Positions 16,271-22,177 of a stretch of DNA of 47,545 bases are shown here, one piece after another. The position numbers were made by a program, and so were the translations under genes. Position 1 is the first letter of the stretch. Each line of letters starts with the position of its first letter. Source of the stretch: a bacterium HR19 (lineage in GTDB: Bacteria; Calescibacteriota; Calescibacteriia; Calescibacteriales; Calescibacteriaceae); contig BEHV01000014.1 in the NCBI GenBank assembly GCA_002898315.1, positions 1 to 47,545 of the forward strand, given 5' to 3'. The notes under the pieces are model-generated. The model made no database searches, was not told where the DNA came from, and was given only the letters and a program-made list of their open reading frames with translations.

Positions 16271-17521
16271 TTATGATTCTACTGCTCCAAGGAACTGGAT
16301 AATATCTGCAAGGTATTCTTCACGATCTCTTTGAGGTGGACATAAATCAGTGCGAAATTCGGATGAGTATTTTGCCATTAACAGATTTACAAGATCAACA
16401 AGAATTTTTTCATCACCTTCCTGTTCTATAAACTCACTATAAAGGTTTCTTATCTCAGAATCACGAAGTCGTATGTTTTCAAAAATTTTTATAAAGTTGG
16501 TACCGTATTGCAGTAAAAATGCTCTTTCCCATATGCTTGTAAGCTGTGAGAGCCATATATCGTCATATCTCAGAAAAAGCAAATCGGAGATAGAGTATTG
16601 CTTTCTGAACAATTTCGCAGGTATCTGATTTCCGTATAAAGCTCCAAAGGCTATATCTATGCCATTAATGTTAATGGTTAAATTTAAATCTTCCTCATCT
16701 TCATTTACAAGAGGAATTTTTTCTTTCGTTATATAATTGAGCAAGTCCTGAAATCCTTCCTTATTTGATGAGAAAAATCCATATCTTTGATCCCCTTCGG
16801 GTGTAGCAGGTATTCCATCTACATTAAATAGTATTCCGATATAAATTTCAACTTTTTCATAACCGTGTTCTTTTAAAACATCTATCAGAGAATATGTTTG
16901 AGCATCTTTCTCAAATAAAGCGTTAATTCTGAACAGGTCAAGGATAGCTTTAAATTTTTTCGTCCATATTTCTCTTCTTGCTGCGGTACCGCCGGAGTCA
17001 ACCCTGTTTTTTAACTCTAACAGAACTATTGTTTTATGATTCGGCAATAGATTTCCAATATCTGTGGTTTCGTCTTCCCGTCCGTGATAATTCCAGGGAT
17101 AGGTTCTAATTATTCTTTTTTCCTCGGCAGTTAATCCATTCAGTGTAAAAATTCCTTTCTTTCTGTGCAGTGAGGGATTTTCAAGCCATAAGGGGAATTC
17201 ACTAATTTTTATATTTATTGAGCATGATTCAGCCAGTGAAGAGAAGCGTTTTTCAATATATTTTCCTTTTCCTCCCTGACTATGTTGATAGTAGGAAGTA
17301 ATTCCAAGAAGAGCTTCATAATAGTATTTAAATTCGTCGGATACACTTTCAAGTCCATCAAATATCCTTGAAACAGGATCAAAGTCAATTGCCTGTGGAT
17401 CTGTTGAGAGTTCGTAAAAATTTGAAAGGATATTTTTATAAGGTTCATAAAGAATTATATGTCCGATGTCAAGATTTTCTTTCCTTTTCAGGCACAACAA
17501 ATTTCTTTTCTTTATCGGCAT
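16271..17521 (-). CDS. Probable type II restriction endonuclease (PD-(D/E)XK type)
   Basis: 416 residues; I do not recognise the family. It is called a nuclease for two reasons. It starts 4 bp after a DNA methyltransferase gene on the same strand, and it contains a plausible PD-(D/E)XK core: D154 in ETTDIG, then the hydrophobic strand TIVLLELKN with E169 and K171, preceded by a possible helix acid E90. The remainder is alpha/beta with no helicase or phospholipase motif. No signal peptide or membrane segment. The recognition sequence is unknown. A possible continuation in another frame downstream is noted under the intergenic entry. Confidence 0.6.
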   Translation of the reverse strand: MPIKKRNLLCLKRKENLDIGHIILYEPYKNILSNFYELSTDPQAIDFDPVSRIFDGLESVSDEFKYYYEALLGITSYYQHSQGGKGKYIEKRFSSLAESCSINIKISEFPLWLENPSLHRKKGIFTLNGLTAEEKRIIRTYPWNYHGREDETTDIGNLLPNHKTIVLLELKNRVDSGGTAARREIWTKKFKAILDLFRINALFEKDAQTYSLIDVLKEHGYEKVEIYIGILFNVDGIPATPEGDQRYGFFSSNKEGFQDLLNYITKEKIPLVNEDEEDLNLTININGIDIAFGALYGNQIPAKLFRKQYSISDLLFLRYDDIWLSQLTSIWERAFLLQYGTNFIKIFENIRLRDSEIRNLYSEFIEQEGDEKILVDLVNLLMAKYSSEFRTDLCPPQRDREEYLADIIQFLGAVES

Positions 17522-17525
17522 TTTA

Positions 17526-18851
17526 TTAACTACTTTTTTCGCATATTATTATGCTCTCGCCTCTAATTGCCCTGTTCCTCGCCCCTAAAAGCGGATTAAA
17601 TATCAATTTTTTAAACTTAAATCCCGCTTCTTCGCAGAATTTTTTAGTCATCATTGTCGTTGGTATTTTTCTGCCATTTACCGTGCTATCACCCACTATT
17701 ATTGCGATTTTACCACCCGGTTTTAATGCCCAGAACATATTTTCTATGGATGCTTTAAGGTCTTCGTAATAAAGGGCAACTCTGGAAGGCACATTTCCGT
17801 ATTTCCCGATGGGTAAAGAATTTTTCATCCCGAGATATTTTGCTTCAATCTTTTTCATATCTATGCCAAAGTATTCATAAGCGATTTTATCTTTCCCGAC
17901 ATAGTCAATTGAAAAATAATAAGGCGGGCTTGTTATTATCGCGTCAAATTTTTCACGAAAATGGGGATAGTTATTTTTGATGTCCAGAACATCTCCCTCA
18001 TAAATTTCAGCATCAGCAAAATTTAATCCCCAATTTTCTTTTATCTGCATTAATTTTTCATAACATTTTTTCATGTATGTAAATTTCTCAACAAACAACC
18101 CCTCTTTCCCCTTTCTGTTATACCTGCTGGTTCTGGCAAAAGCGTCAATTGTATCAAAATAAATTACAAGCATTAGATTTTCTATTGTCTTATTCGGGTG
18201 TGTCCAGCTTTTGTTCCGAATGGAACTTATTATGTCAACAAGATCGTTAAGAGAAAAATCAAAATCATTTGGAGATAGATGGGGGAGTTCATTTTTTAAC
18301 TTTGCCAGCATAACACCCATCGGGGTTATATCAATTCCAACGCTTTTAACACCCATAAGAGATGCTTCGTGCGTGGTGGTTCCCGAACCGTTGAAAGGAT
18401 CAAGTATCAAATTACCCTCTTTTAAGCCAAATGCATTTATAAGTGTTCTCACAACCCGGGGGTAAAATTTGCCCTTATACGGATATAAATTATGGAATGC
18501 ATAAGCGTTCGTGTCGCCGTAAAGGTCTATGAACTCGGTATATAGTGTCTTTTTCTTTTTCACGGTTTCCAGATGTGCAATCCTCTTTCTGATAAACTCA
18601 AAGTCCCCTTCCATTTCAACGACTCTGTTTACGGGGTCAATGTTGTAGCTATCTGTAAGCCCCTGGAGTTCAAGATCAAGGAGTTCCAGATCAGCCAGAG
18701 TTTGCATCCAGAAGCCAAAAATGTTCTCACCTTTCGGGACGATATATCTTTTAAATTCTTTTGAATACTCTTCCAAAATTTCCTCGTATGTGGGGGATTC
18801 GTATATGCCAAACAAAGTTTGTTTCCTCTGCTCCAATTTTTCTTTCGCCAT
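17526..18851 (-). CDS. Site-specific DNA methyltransferase (TSPPY motif)
   Basis: 441 residues. S-adenosylmethionine motif I is LDPFNGSGTTTHEAS (150-164), with acidic GID at 172-174. Catalytic motif IV TSPPYY is at 307-312. A TSPPY motif indicates amino-methylation, most often N4-cytosine and sometimes N6-adenine. Motif I precedes motif IV with about 150 residues between, and an unusual 110-residue N-terminal region comes first, so the target-recognition region probably lies between the motifs or at the N-terminus. It is the modification half of a two-gene system with the downstream nuclease. Confidence 0.88.
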   Translation of the reverse strand: MAKEKLEQRKQTLFGIYESPTYEEILEEYSKEFKRYIVPKGENIFGFWMQTLADLELLDLELQGLTDSYNIDPVNRVVEMEGDFEFIRKRIAHLETVKKKKTLYTEFIDLYGDTNAYAFHNLYPYKGKFYPRVVRTLINAFGLKEGNLILDPFNGSGTTTHEASLMGVKSVGIDITPMGVMLAKLKNELPHLSPNDFDFSLNDLVDIISSIRNKSWTHPNKTIENLMLVIYFDTIDAFARTSRYNRKGKEGLFVEKFTYMKKCYEKLMQIKENWGLNFADAEIYEGDVLDIKNNYPHFREKFDAIITSPPYYFSIDYVGKDKIAYEYFGIDMKKIEAKYLGMKNSLPIGKYGNVPSRVALYYEDLKASIENMFWALKPGGKIAIIVGDSTVNGRKIPTTMMTKKFCEEAGFKFKKLIFNPLLGARNRAIRGESIIICEKSS

Positions 18852-18911: not shown

Positions 18912-19367
18912 TCAAAATCTCTGTAATTTGTGAACAAATCTGCAATAGGGACCTCCCTCTGAGAGAAGTTTTCCGTCTATTTGAAGAGAGTAGTTTTTAT
19001 TCAACCTTTTGAAGGTAGATAACTCAAACTCTTTTACGAGAACGTGGCAGAACTCTGAATGTCTGTTCAGAACCCGAGCGAAAGGGCAAAACATCTCAAA
19101 CTTTTCCGCATGCTCTTTTTCTTTTATCTCCCATCTGCCTTTCACTCCGAAAATTTTATCTTCCATATCTTGAATCTTTGAAAGATCGCGCATATCATCA
19201 TATCGGTTTATTTTCAGGAGTTTAGCCATAATAGGTGCTCTTACAGACCCCAAAAACCTAATAAATGGAGTCATAATCTTTATGGCTTTCTCCTTGCCTA
19301 AAAAAATTTTCAAGGTTATGTAAAACCTCACAATAAAAAACGCAAAGTTCTTCAGAAAAAAGTCCAT
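18912..19367 (-). CDS. Small Cys-containing protein, possibly ATC-hydrolase-like
   Basis: 151 residues. The N-terminal 50 residues are hydrophobic/basic and may contact the membrane. The C-terminal half has Cys in the pattern MFCPFA, SEFCHVL and GGPYCRFVH. That spacing, with a final C-x-F-x-H, resembles the L-2-amino-thiazoline-4-carboxylic acid hydrolase family (PF14196), a poorly characterised group often of unknown function. This is a tentative pattern match. It lies between the R-M genes and the kinase-like gene, same strand. Confidence 0.5.
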   Translation of the reverse strand: MDFFLKNFAFFIVRFYITLKIFLGKEKAIKIMTPFIRFLGSVRAPIMAKLLKINRYDDMRDLSKIQDMEDKIFGVKGRWEIKEKEHAEKFEMFCPFARVLNRHSEFCHVLVKEFELSTFKRLNKNYSLQIDGKLLSEGGPYCRFVHKLQRF

Positions 19368-19420
19368 GAGTATATTTTAATGCATAACGATATTTTTTTG
19401 TGTTCGCAAAGCTCGTGCGA

Positions 19421-20743
19421 CTATTTTACTTTGATCTCAACTCTATTATTTATAAGGTCGGCAAATATGAAAATCTTTCTGTCTCTTTCTACCTTTATAG
19501 GAATTTCTTTTTCACCAGTAAAAGTAACGCCTTCTGATGTAGGGCTAATCTCTTCCCGCCTCGCAACTTTTAACTTTATTACATTTTCTCCTTCCTTTGC
19601 TTTGAAATTTACAACAGGTGTCTTACCTATAAAAGTTCCGTTCAAAAAAACATCGCAATCTGGCAGTGAGTTTACCGATATGTATCCGTAAAATTTTGAT
19701 TCCGCTTTGGAACTTTTATCTTTTGCCAGCTCAACTCCTTTCACCTTCTCCTCTCTTGCCTGAAATCTCTCTTTCACAGAACTAATATTCTTTTCTTCTG
19801 ATATGATACCTTCTCTTTCACCTTTCTCATTCAGTTTATCACTTGTTATGCTTTCTCCTTGAAGATCGGAAAAAGTTTGAGAGATGTTTTGAGAAAATCC
19901 CTCACCTGAAATTCTGCCAACTTCATTATTTTTAATCATACCGCTCCTTTCTTTTTCTCCTGCTCTCATAAGAAGAAAGGCAGAGATAGTTCCAAGAATA
20001 ACGAAAGATGCTACCCAAGATAGAGCTATAAGATTTCGTTTTGTTCCATCTCGTTTTTTCTCATATAAACTGAACTTCGGTTCATACAAAATGAACTGAG
20101 CGATGTCTTTTTCTGTGATAATTTTGAAGGAGTTAATGATTTTGTAAAGTTCGCGCAAAAAATCTTCCGGCTTACTGAACCTATCAACTCTTTGAGCGAT
20201 TTTTCTCAACCTTTTGTCATCTGTCATCTCAAGAATGATTTTTGAAAGCGCCTTCATATCAGATTTTATACTCTTCTTCTCGTCTGCTGAGTAATACGAG
20301 GGAGTAATAAAATTGTGGCTTTTCGCACAGTCAAGAACCTTAACCTCGCCATCATAAGTTATAACTATGTTAGACGGAGTGATGTCTCCGTTATACTCTC
20401 CTTTTGACAATATGAAATCAAGAAATCTCAAAATTTCAAGAGAAATAAAGAGTGAGACCTCGGGAGGCAAAACTCCTCGCTCAGAAATAATATCTCTCAA
20501 AGTTTTTCCGGCAATATACTCTTTAACTATGCATACGTTTCCTTCTTCATCTTCAAAAAAATCATAAATCTGCGGTGTCTTATACCTTATCTTAGAGAAA
20601 AACTCATACTCCTCTTTGGCTATATCGGCATTTTCTCTGCCGTAAATTTTCAGTATAACATTTTTCCCTATAACTTTGTCGTAGCAAAGATAAACTCTGC
20701 ATATATCACTTTCAGAGAAAAGGACTTTATCTTGAAACCGCAT
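19421..20743 (-). CDS. Membrane Ser/Thr kinase-like protein with PEGA domain (probable pseudokinase)
   Basis: 440 residues. Residues 1-205 form a protein-kinase fold: K32 in VILKIY, E44/E45, catalytic-loop equivalent NGDITPSN (D120, N124) and SDMKALSKIILEM of the F-helix. The Gly-rich loop is replaced by FSESDICRVYL with no Gly, and DFG is shortened to DCA (D138). Catalysis is therefore doubtful. A transmembrane helix follows at about 238-260, then a charged linker, then a C-terminal PEGA domain (about 350-440; FLNGTFIGKTPVV). The PEGA side would be periplasmic and the kinase side cytoplasmic. It is divergent from an FHA-sigma54 activator gene 99 bp away. Confidence 0.85.
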   Translation of the reverse strand: MRFQDKVLFSESDICRVYLCYDKVIGKNVILKIYGRENADIAKEEYEFFSKIRYKTPQIYDFFEDEEGNVCIVKEYIAGKTLRDIISERGVLPPEVSLFISLEILRFLDFILSKGEYNGDITPSNIVITYDGEVKVLDCAKSHNFITPSYYSADEKKSIKSDMKALSKIILEMTDDKRLRKIAQRVDRFSKPEDFLRELYKIINSFKIITEKDIAQFILYEPKFSLYEKKRDGTKRNLIALSWVASFVILGTISAFLLMRAGEKERSGMIKNNEVGRISGEGFSQNISQTFSDLQGESITSDKLNEKGEREGIISEEKNISSVKERFQAREEKVKGVELAKDKSSKAESKFYGYISVNSLPDCDVFLNGTFIGKTPVVNFKAKEGENVIKLKVARREEISPTSEGVTFTGEKEIPIKVERDRKIFIFADLINNRVEIKVK

Positions 20744-20842
20744 TAAAATAGCAAAATAAAAATTAAGTCATCTGCAATATTTTTCAGCTTTACTGATAAA
20801 GTTAAAGTTCCATAATAAATCCAAAAGATTAACTTTTATATC

Positions 20843-22177
20843 ATGGAGAGAACGATAAAAATAGAAAAAAAATTCCTTGAAATTCCTGTTGGAGAGTTCA
20901 TAGTTATCAAAGGTAAAGATAAAGGCAAAGTTTTCAAGCTTGCTTCACGAGAAGCTTTGGTAGGCACATCGCCATCATCTGATATAAGGTTATCTGACCC
21001 AACAGTATCAAGAACACACTGCAAAATATTCTGGAACGATGAAGCGAAAATGTTTCAGGTTCAGGACCTCGGAAGCACAAACGGAACACTTATAAACAAA
21101 ATTCCCGTAGTGAATGCTTTCTTACCACCAGAATCCATAATAACTTTGGGAGAAACCGAAATTGTTTTCAAGCAATCTGGCAAAAAAAGACAAATAGAGC
21201 TTTTTCCTGAGGAGAACTTCTTCGGATGCGTCGGAGTGAGTCAAGCTATGAGAGAGATATTCTCAATAGCGCTAAAATCTGCTCAAACAGATATGAACAT
21301 ACTTATTGAAGGAGAGACAGGAGTAGGTAAAGAAGAGCTTGCGAAAGCCATACATAAAGCAAGTCCAAGAAAAGAAAAAAACTTTGTCGTATGCGATGTC
21401 ACAACTATTCCAAAAGAACTTTTTTTGACCGAACTTTTCGGCTATGAAAAAGGTGCCTTTACAGGAGCAGATAAAAGCAAAAAGGGGCTCGTTGAACTGG
21501 CTGACGGAGGAACCCTATTTATAGACGAAATAGGTGAAATACCACCACAAGACCAAGTGCATCTTCTGAGATTTGTTGAAAAAAAAGAACTAAGACCCAT
21601 AGGTTCAAATACAATAAAGAAAGTTAATGTGAGAATAATCTCTGCTACTTCAAAAAATATAGACGAAGAGGTTGAAAAAGGAAATTTCAGAAGCGACCTT
21701 TTCTTCCGACTAAGTCAGTTCAGAATAAAAATCCCACCACTCAGAGAAAGAAAAGAAGATATATTCCCGCTGATATTAGATACTCTGAAAAAACTGACCG
21801 ACGATGAGAAAAAAATAAATATGCTCTATGATTTTCTGCAAAAAAATTCATCTTTTATACTGAACTACAACTGGCCGGGAAATGTAAGAGAACTTAAAAA
21901 CTTCACCGAAAGGTTTTACAGAATATGGGAAATAACAGGAGAGATGAAAGTTGATATTCCCTTTATGTCAATAAGAAACGAAACAGCTCAAGATAAATAC
22001 GATTTCAAATCTCAAAAAAGAAAGATAATTGAAGATTTTGAAAGAACATATGTCATAGAGCTGTACCAGAGGTGCAAAGGAAACATTTCAGAGTGCGCAA
22101 GATTAGCAAAAGTAAACAGAAAATACATGGAAAAGCTCATAAGAAAATACATAAAGAACGAGACAGAAAATTTATGA
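20843..22177 (+). CDS. Sigma-54-dependent transcription activator with N-terminal FHA domain
   Basis: 444 residues. The FHA phosphothreonine-binding domain spans about 20-110 (GTSPSSDIRLSD, SRTHCKI, LGSTNGTLIN). The AAA+ domain spans about 125-355, with Walker A GETGVGKE (157-164), GAFTGA (204-209), which contacts sigma-54, and Walker B LFIDEI (225-230). A Fis-type helix-turn-helix ends the protein (GNISECARLAKVNRKYMEKL). It drives sigma-54 promoters. Input is by binding a phosphorylated partner rather than by a receiver domain, an arrangement expanded in myxobacteria. Its targets are unknown; no clear sigma-54 promoter was spotted nearby. Confidence 0.96.
   Translation: MERTIKIEKKFLEIPVGEFIVIKGKDKGKVFKLASREALVGTSPSSDIRLSDPTVSRTHCKIFWNDEAKMFQVQDLGSTNGTLINKIPVVNAFLPPESIITLGETEIVFKQSGKKRQIELFPEENFFGCVGVSQAMREIFSIALKSAQTDMNILIEGETGVGKEELAKAIHKASPRKEKNFVVCDVTTIPKELFLTELFGYEKGAFTGADKSKKGLVELADGGTLFIDEIGEIPPQDQVHLLRFVEKKELRPIGSNTIKKVNVRIISATSKNIDEEVEKGNFRSDLFFRLSQFRIKIPPLRERKEDIFPLILDTLKKLTDDEKKINMLYDFLQKNSSFILNYNWPGNVRELKNFTERFYRIWEITGEMKVDIPFMSIRNETAQDKYDFKSQKRKIIEDFERTYVIELYQRCKGNISECARLAKVNRKYMEKLIRKYIKNETENL

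Follow-up and report, generated by a model that had tools for sequence, protein, structure and literature searches.

Genes and features of the locus

Sequence analysis of the window, i.e., the whole stretch of 47,545 nucleotides, revealed two ORFs that diverge start to start and encode a kinase-like membrane receptor and a sigma-54 activator (Table 1). The host, an uncultured hot-spring bacterium of the Calescibacterota, is represented by a 1.88-Mb draft genome (82% complete), which contains one copy of rpoN, five complete sigma-54 activator domains (that of the window included), one fragment and weaker AAA+ matches, and one further Ser/Thr protein kinase (STPK), which is canonical. Genome-wide, sites of the -24/-12 type are in excess, with 68 sites against 17 in a reversed control when one mismatch is allowed. 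The segment 19421-22177 had been singled out in an earlier note on this DNA, which described kinase-like and activator genes diverging across 99 bp; no -24/-12 sigma-54 site was found within this intergenic region.

Table 1. Coordinates of the receptor and activator genes and of their features within the window.
Feature	Positions	Strand	Remarks
Membrane kinase-like receptor, 440 aa	19421-20743	-	cytosolic protein-kinase domain at the N-terminus, then one TM helix, a linker and an extracytoplasmic PEGA-like domain at the C-terminus
Reduced kinase domain, residues 1-210	20114-20743	-	Pfam, AlphaFold2 model, structural comparison
Gly-rich loop position, residues 10-15	20699-20716	-	SESDIC (no glycine)
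K32, beta-3 Lys in VILK	20648-20650	-	usual partner, alpha-C Glu, is E45
Catalytic loop NGDITPSN, residues 118-125	20369-20392	-	D120 and N125 retained; Arg and Lys gone
DCA in place of DFG, residues 138-140	20324-20332	-	metal-binding D138 retained; activation loop shortened directly after
TM helix, hydrophobic core, residues 238-256	19976-20032	-	
PEGA-like beta domain, residues 352-440	19424-19690	-	Pfam, hhalign, model
Divergent intergenic region	20744-20842		99 bp exactly between start codons; well conserved in same-genus genome
FHA-domain sigma-54 enhancer-binding protein, 444 aa	20843-22177	+	
FHA domain	20900-21175	+	SRxH and STNGT present; GR Arg replaced by Thr (VGTSPSSDI)
AAA+ sigma-54 activation domain and lid	21230-21922	+	Walker A GETGVGKE
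GAFTGA loop, residues 204-209	21452-21469	+	sigma-54 contact, intact
Fis-type helix-turn-helix region, residues 396-436	22028-22150	+	weak Pfam match

Directly downstream of the kinase gene lies a gene for a 151-aa protein with weak ATC_hydrolase likeness (18912-19367, minus strand), which is kept beside the kinase gene in the related genome G002 and not in G004. A sigma-54-like site just past the kinase gene (19406-19420, minus strand), considered as a promoter of the next gene, is not conserved in G002 and is therefore treated as a chance occurrence. Positions 16271-18851 (minus strand) encode two proteins, one a type II-like DNA methyltransferase, the other of 416 aa and without clear family, which probably form an inserted restriction-modification pair; the genes flanking this segment are direct neighbours in G002 (L072).

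The receptor and its reduced kinase domain

The N-terminal part of the receptor matches the Pfam Pkinase profile above the cut-off (E=6.1e-12), although only profile positions 14-143 of 263 are covered. In the AlphaFold2 model, computed from an input alignment of 33 sequences, residues 1-210 form a two-lobe kinase with most blocks at pLDDT >90, followed by a TM helix (residues 233-265), a linker with little order and a beta domain (residues 352-440). Structural comparison with VIA-align listed 50 matches, all of them standard-fold protein kinases, with PknB best among the matches listed (Z 21.8, 204 residues aligned, rmsd 2.4 A); structures of EssB or MviN were not among these 50 listed matches, which says nothing against a likeness. 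Both fold and profile thus assign the domain to the protein-kinase superfamily. The C-terminal PEGA match remains below the Pfam cut-off (E=0.0049), but is upheld by hhalign comparison with the PEGA domains of the activator-paired kinases described below (94.7%, E=5.8e-08) and by the beta fold modelled beyond the single TM helix, in agreement with the tethering of a kinase domain to PEGA proposed in the earlier note.

Reading of the kinase motifs confirmed the previously noted loss of the Gly-loop glycines, the DCA in place of DFG and the retention of K32, D120 and D138, while the conserved Asn, present as claimed, is N125 rather than N124 (it is preceded by S124). Beyond these points, HRD is changed to NGD and the catalytic-loop Lys to Thr (DLKP to DITP), and the domain has lost about 12 residues directly after DCA, 4 more before helix F and about 36 after helix F, including the G-helix. 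Of the canonical Ser/Thr kinase motif set (Gly loop, HRD, DLKP, DFG, activation segment, APE and G-helix), the catalytic core residues alone remain. Such a combination of changes or losses (Gly loop, HRD His/Arg, catalytic-loop Lys, DFG Phe/Gly, activation loop, G-helix) would be uncommon among active protein kinases. The catalytic loop resembles that of a Bud32-like kinase of the same genus (HGDLTTSN, likewise without Arg and Lys), and Bud32, the KEOPS kinase, has a similarly small kinase fold and is an enzyme. A Bud32 origin was nevertheless rejected, as both the profile (Pkinase 6e-12) and the PknB-like fold mark the window protein as an STPK; it differs from Bud32 also in carrying a TM helix and PEGA.

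The residues left are strongly constrained. In the window protein and its orthologues in G002 and G004, the Gly-loop position varies (SESDIC, SESNIC and WEGNLS, respectively) and the DFG position reads DCA or DFA, whereas K32, E45, D120, N125 and D138 are the same in each of the three proteins. Taking as reference the 53 kinase-domain columns conserved at ≥90% in the activator-paired family of the phylum of G011 (see below), the three orthologues keep 5 of 5 catalytic columns against 12 of the 48 others (p=0.002). Between the window and G002, dN/dS amounts to 0.13 over the kinase domain and 0.06 over the shortened C-lobe within it, 0.22 for the PEGA part, 0.55 for the linker and 0.08 for the activator, the value for the TM segment being unreliable at a dS of 0.08; the shortened C-lobe is under strong purifying selection. 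Bacterial pseudokinases are defined by the loss of at least one of the beta-3 Lys, HRD Asp and DFG Asp (PMC12599244, PMC6791715), and by this K/D/D test the window domain is not a pseudokinase, because K32, D120 and D138 are present and, with E45 and N125, invariant in the three orthologues.

The FHA activator and the linkage of the two genes

The divergent gene encodes a sigma-54 enhancer-binding protein (Pfam FHA 2.2e-15, Sigma54_activat 2.8e-62); its AAA+ domain carries the Walker motifs and GAFTGA, and rpoN is present in the genome. Alignment of its FHA domain with that of GarA (VGTSPSSDI vs AGRHPDSDI) places Thr, in the window and in both orthologues, at the position of the GR Arg, which contacts phosphate in canonical FHA domains; the phosphothreonine-site Ser and Asn are present. 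The FHA input described in the earlier note is therefore real as a domain, but its reading of phosphothreonine is possible and not to be assumed, and the missing Arg weakens the case for a phospho-readout. Among the eight FHA-activators compared (L002, L004, L005, L036, L037, L038, L101 and L118), the Arg is absent in six, three of which are the window protein and its two orthologues; among six other FHA proteins (one entry occurring twice) it is absent in one. The six of eight raise the question whether that class of FHA domains reads phosphothreonine at all. Another FHA sigma-54 activator, in G037, lacks a kinase neighbour and has directly upstream an 895-aa ORF without Pfam match (L076, 3507-6194).

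The pair was compared with four genomes of the same family, which are drafts 84-86% complete, so that single absences mean little. In G002, both genes are divergent and 98 bp apart, with 78% (kinase) and 94% (activator) identity; in G004, they stand in tandem, activator first, less than 90 bp apart, with 41 and 67% identity, respectively, and no other nearby gene in common with the window neighbourhood. Neither full-length orthologue is present in G001 and G003. In all three genomes with full-length orthologues the two genes are thus neighbours, across two different arrangements and two different contexts. That G004 has them together again at another location and differently arranged is good support for a functional link. 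Conservation of the pair, on which the earlier note had made its proposal depend, accordingly holds in two relatives. The second STPK of this genome family, a canonical one, has an activator as neighbour in 0 of 4 cases. A genome-collection scan for the kinase returned the two known orthologues, from one MAG labelled "bacterium" and one Candidatus Calescibacterium MAG, and one distant Acidobacteria kinase, nothing more; a search of viral contigs gave no match.

Activator-kinase pairs of similar build recur in other phyla. The best kinase match outside the family, in G005, is an STPK-TM-PEGA protein directly behind a GAF-type sigma-54 activator, and the match in G011 is likewise an STPK-TM-PEGA protein in tandem with a sigma-54 activator. 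In the phylum of G011, 35 of 39 genomes contain a long relative of the kinase, and an activator lies directly upstream on the same strand in 27 of the 30 loci read, mostly overlapping or within 45 bp (two of the three remaining loci end at a contig end). This near phylum-wide tandem with a glycine-poor nucleotide loop (L131-L160, and L074) was not found described in the literature searched, nor was any paper found there on PEGA-domain Ser/Thr kinases. All 30 activator-paired kinases have Lys, Glu, HRD, DLKP, Asn and DFG intact, yet Gly is absent from the first and third positions of the loop motif in every one of them and occurs at the second in only two, with Ser or Ala in its place otherwise (e.g., SRSSIASVYE); the loss of the glycines in otherwise canonical kinases is thus no sign of a dead kinase. 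Elsewhere, an FHA-GAF-AAA-HTH activator of G028 is divergent from a canonical STPK gene across 67 bp (L118, 6410-8338 and 4183-6342), i.e., the layout of the window in an unrelated genome with the kinase domain intact, and an FHA-activator of G032 is convergent with an STPK gene at 3 bp. Among about 40 other STPK loci sampled, immediate activator neighbours are rare.

The GAF activator pairs of G005 and the G011 phylum and the window pair have in common the adjoining sigma-54 activator, the kinase-TM-PEGA order and a glycine-poor nucleotide loop (AHSNICTVYR vs SESDICRVYL in the window), next to a similar beta-3 motif (VLIK/VLVK vs VILK), which would suggest a common origin. They differ in that the GAF-paired kinases keep HRD, DLKP, DFG, the activation loop and the G-helix, and in that their activators carry GAF, not FHA. 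Constraining the window kinase with the activator-paired family gave a likelihood 0.70 higher than that of the free tree (AU p=0.50), other placements gave p=0.30 and 0.45 and are not rejected, and the branch that bears the three orthologues has a length of 2.9 changes per column, with several placements equally allowed; moreover, an HMM of the family scores the window kinase no better than a general STPK HMM. Tree and HMM do not settle the placement, and the window kinase is therefore taken to work like the activator-paired family, with no claim of membership.

A candidate envelope-to-sigma-54 signalling pair

On balance, and with modest confidence, we consider the two genes a probable dedicated envelope-to-sigma-54 pair, in which a reduced, predicted ATP-competent kinase domain would act on the activator through its FHA domain, a reading that draws on the three available orthologues. 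The PEGA domain outside the membrane would sense the state of the envelope, and the presumed signal would cross the membrane by the single TM helix and reach the kinase domain in the cytosol, of which the core for ATP/Mg binding and phosphotransfer is left. This domain would act on the neighbouring activator via the FHA domain, the input of which may release or assemble the AAA+ ring at the sigma-54 promoters of a putative regulon. Most likely, the kinase domain has remained ATP-using and phosphorylates itself or the activator, the latter as its single dedicated substrate; phosphotransfer is favoured because the activation loop and G-helix that were lost contribute mainly to the selection of substrates and to switching, and less to the chemistry itself. 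The envelope-to-sigma-54 pair had been put forward in the earlier note, and is backed by the adjacency in three genomes and two arrangements and by the like pairs in other phyla.

Known systems resemble the pair in part. FHA-domain enhancer-binding proteins were reportedly described in Myxococcus xanthus by Jelsbak et al. in 2005; the window activator shares with them the FHA, sigma-54 AAA+ and HTH architecture, and its partner is a reduced kinase with PEGA. In Mycobacterium tuberculosis, PknH is likewise a membrane Ser/Thr kinase with an extracytoplasmic sensor that acts on a transcription factor, EmbR, through FHA; however, EmbR is a SARP-family activator, is phosphorylated by PknH and has an FHA domain that binds phosphothreonine (PMC4601284). 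MviN-FhaA and EssB/YukC resemble the window receptor in having a kinase fold that is joined to a TM segment and whose activation loop is reduced, and one of them recruits an FHA protein, but their catalytic triad is lost (PMC12599244).

The main rival to an ATP-using dedicated kinase is a nucleotide-gated docking switch, a rather unlikely but serious alternative, in which the domain would bind ATP/Mg without phosphate transfer and its occupancy would alter the hold on, or release of, the activator, following an RNase L-like logic. The ATP/Mg residues are indeed retained while the activation loop, the G-helix and the catalytic-loop Lys are lost, and with the FHA Arg also gone both halves of the pair lack phospho-specific elements. 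RNase L provides a described case, with nucleotide bound and a non-canonical, inactive C-lobe, and reminds that a filled nucleotide site does not prove phosphate transfer (PMC4718504). Against this stands the catalytic D120, which persists at identities as low as 41% and would not have to be retained for nucleotide binding alone; besides, the Arg loss in six of eight FHA-activators may be a trait of the FHA class rather than of this pair. It is rather unlikely that the pair works free of phosphorylation altogether, i.e., that with substrate-handling parts and phosphate-gripping Arg both lost, and the two proteins nevertheless still linked, the envelope signal is passed by ATP-gated docking alone.

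The version of the earlier note seems improbable; under it, the receptor would be a pseudokinase without catalysis that serves only as a scaffold for the activator, comparable to MviN with FhaA or to EssB in type VII secretion. In its favour, bacterial pseudokinases typically depart from several motifs and have a shortened activation loop; a deletion affects this loop in ActPs3, the G-helix is missing from many ActPs1, and an FHA protein is recruited by MviN (PMC12599244). Those families, however, degrade the triad itself, which is exactly what the window kinase conserves, and the MviN-FhaA contact depends in turn on phosphorylation by another kinase (PMC12599244). With the K/D/D triad intact, the five catalytic columns kept and the Gly loop absent also from otherwise canonical kinases, the label "probable pseudokinase" is premature and weakly supported. 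Divergent genes, finally, need not share function, and a conserved intergenic region alone could hold them together within the genus, with the activator answering to another input; an association of this kind, in which unrelated neighbours have no more than a promoter region in common, is nonetheless very improbable, since in G004 the pair is still adjacent in tandem and in a different context, and activator-STPK pairs recur in other phyla.

What is unusual in the window kinase is the shortened C-lobe, not the loss of the Gly loop, and a missing Gly-rich loop alone should not be equated with a dead kinase in bacteria. The tandem module of the G011 phylum, apparently undescribed in the literature searched, is perhaps of wider interest than the window pair itself. 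Ser/Thr kinases feeding sigma-54 activators one-to-one, in a manner resembling two-component systems, are suggested to be common and largely undescribed, none having been found in that literature. For the Calescibacterota, a phylum without genetics, the pair offers a kinase domain that is trimmed to the catalytic core, stands under strong selection and is tied to a sigma-54 activator.
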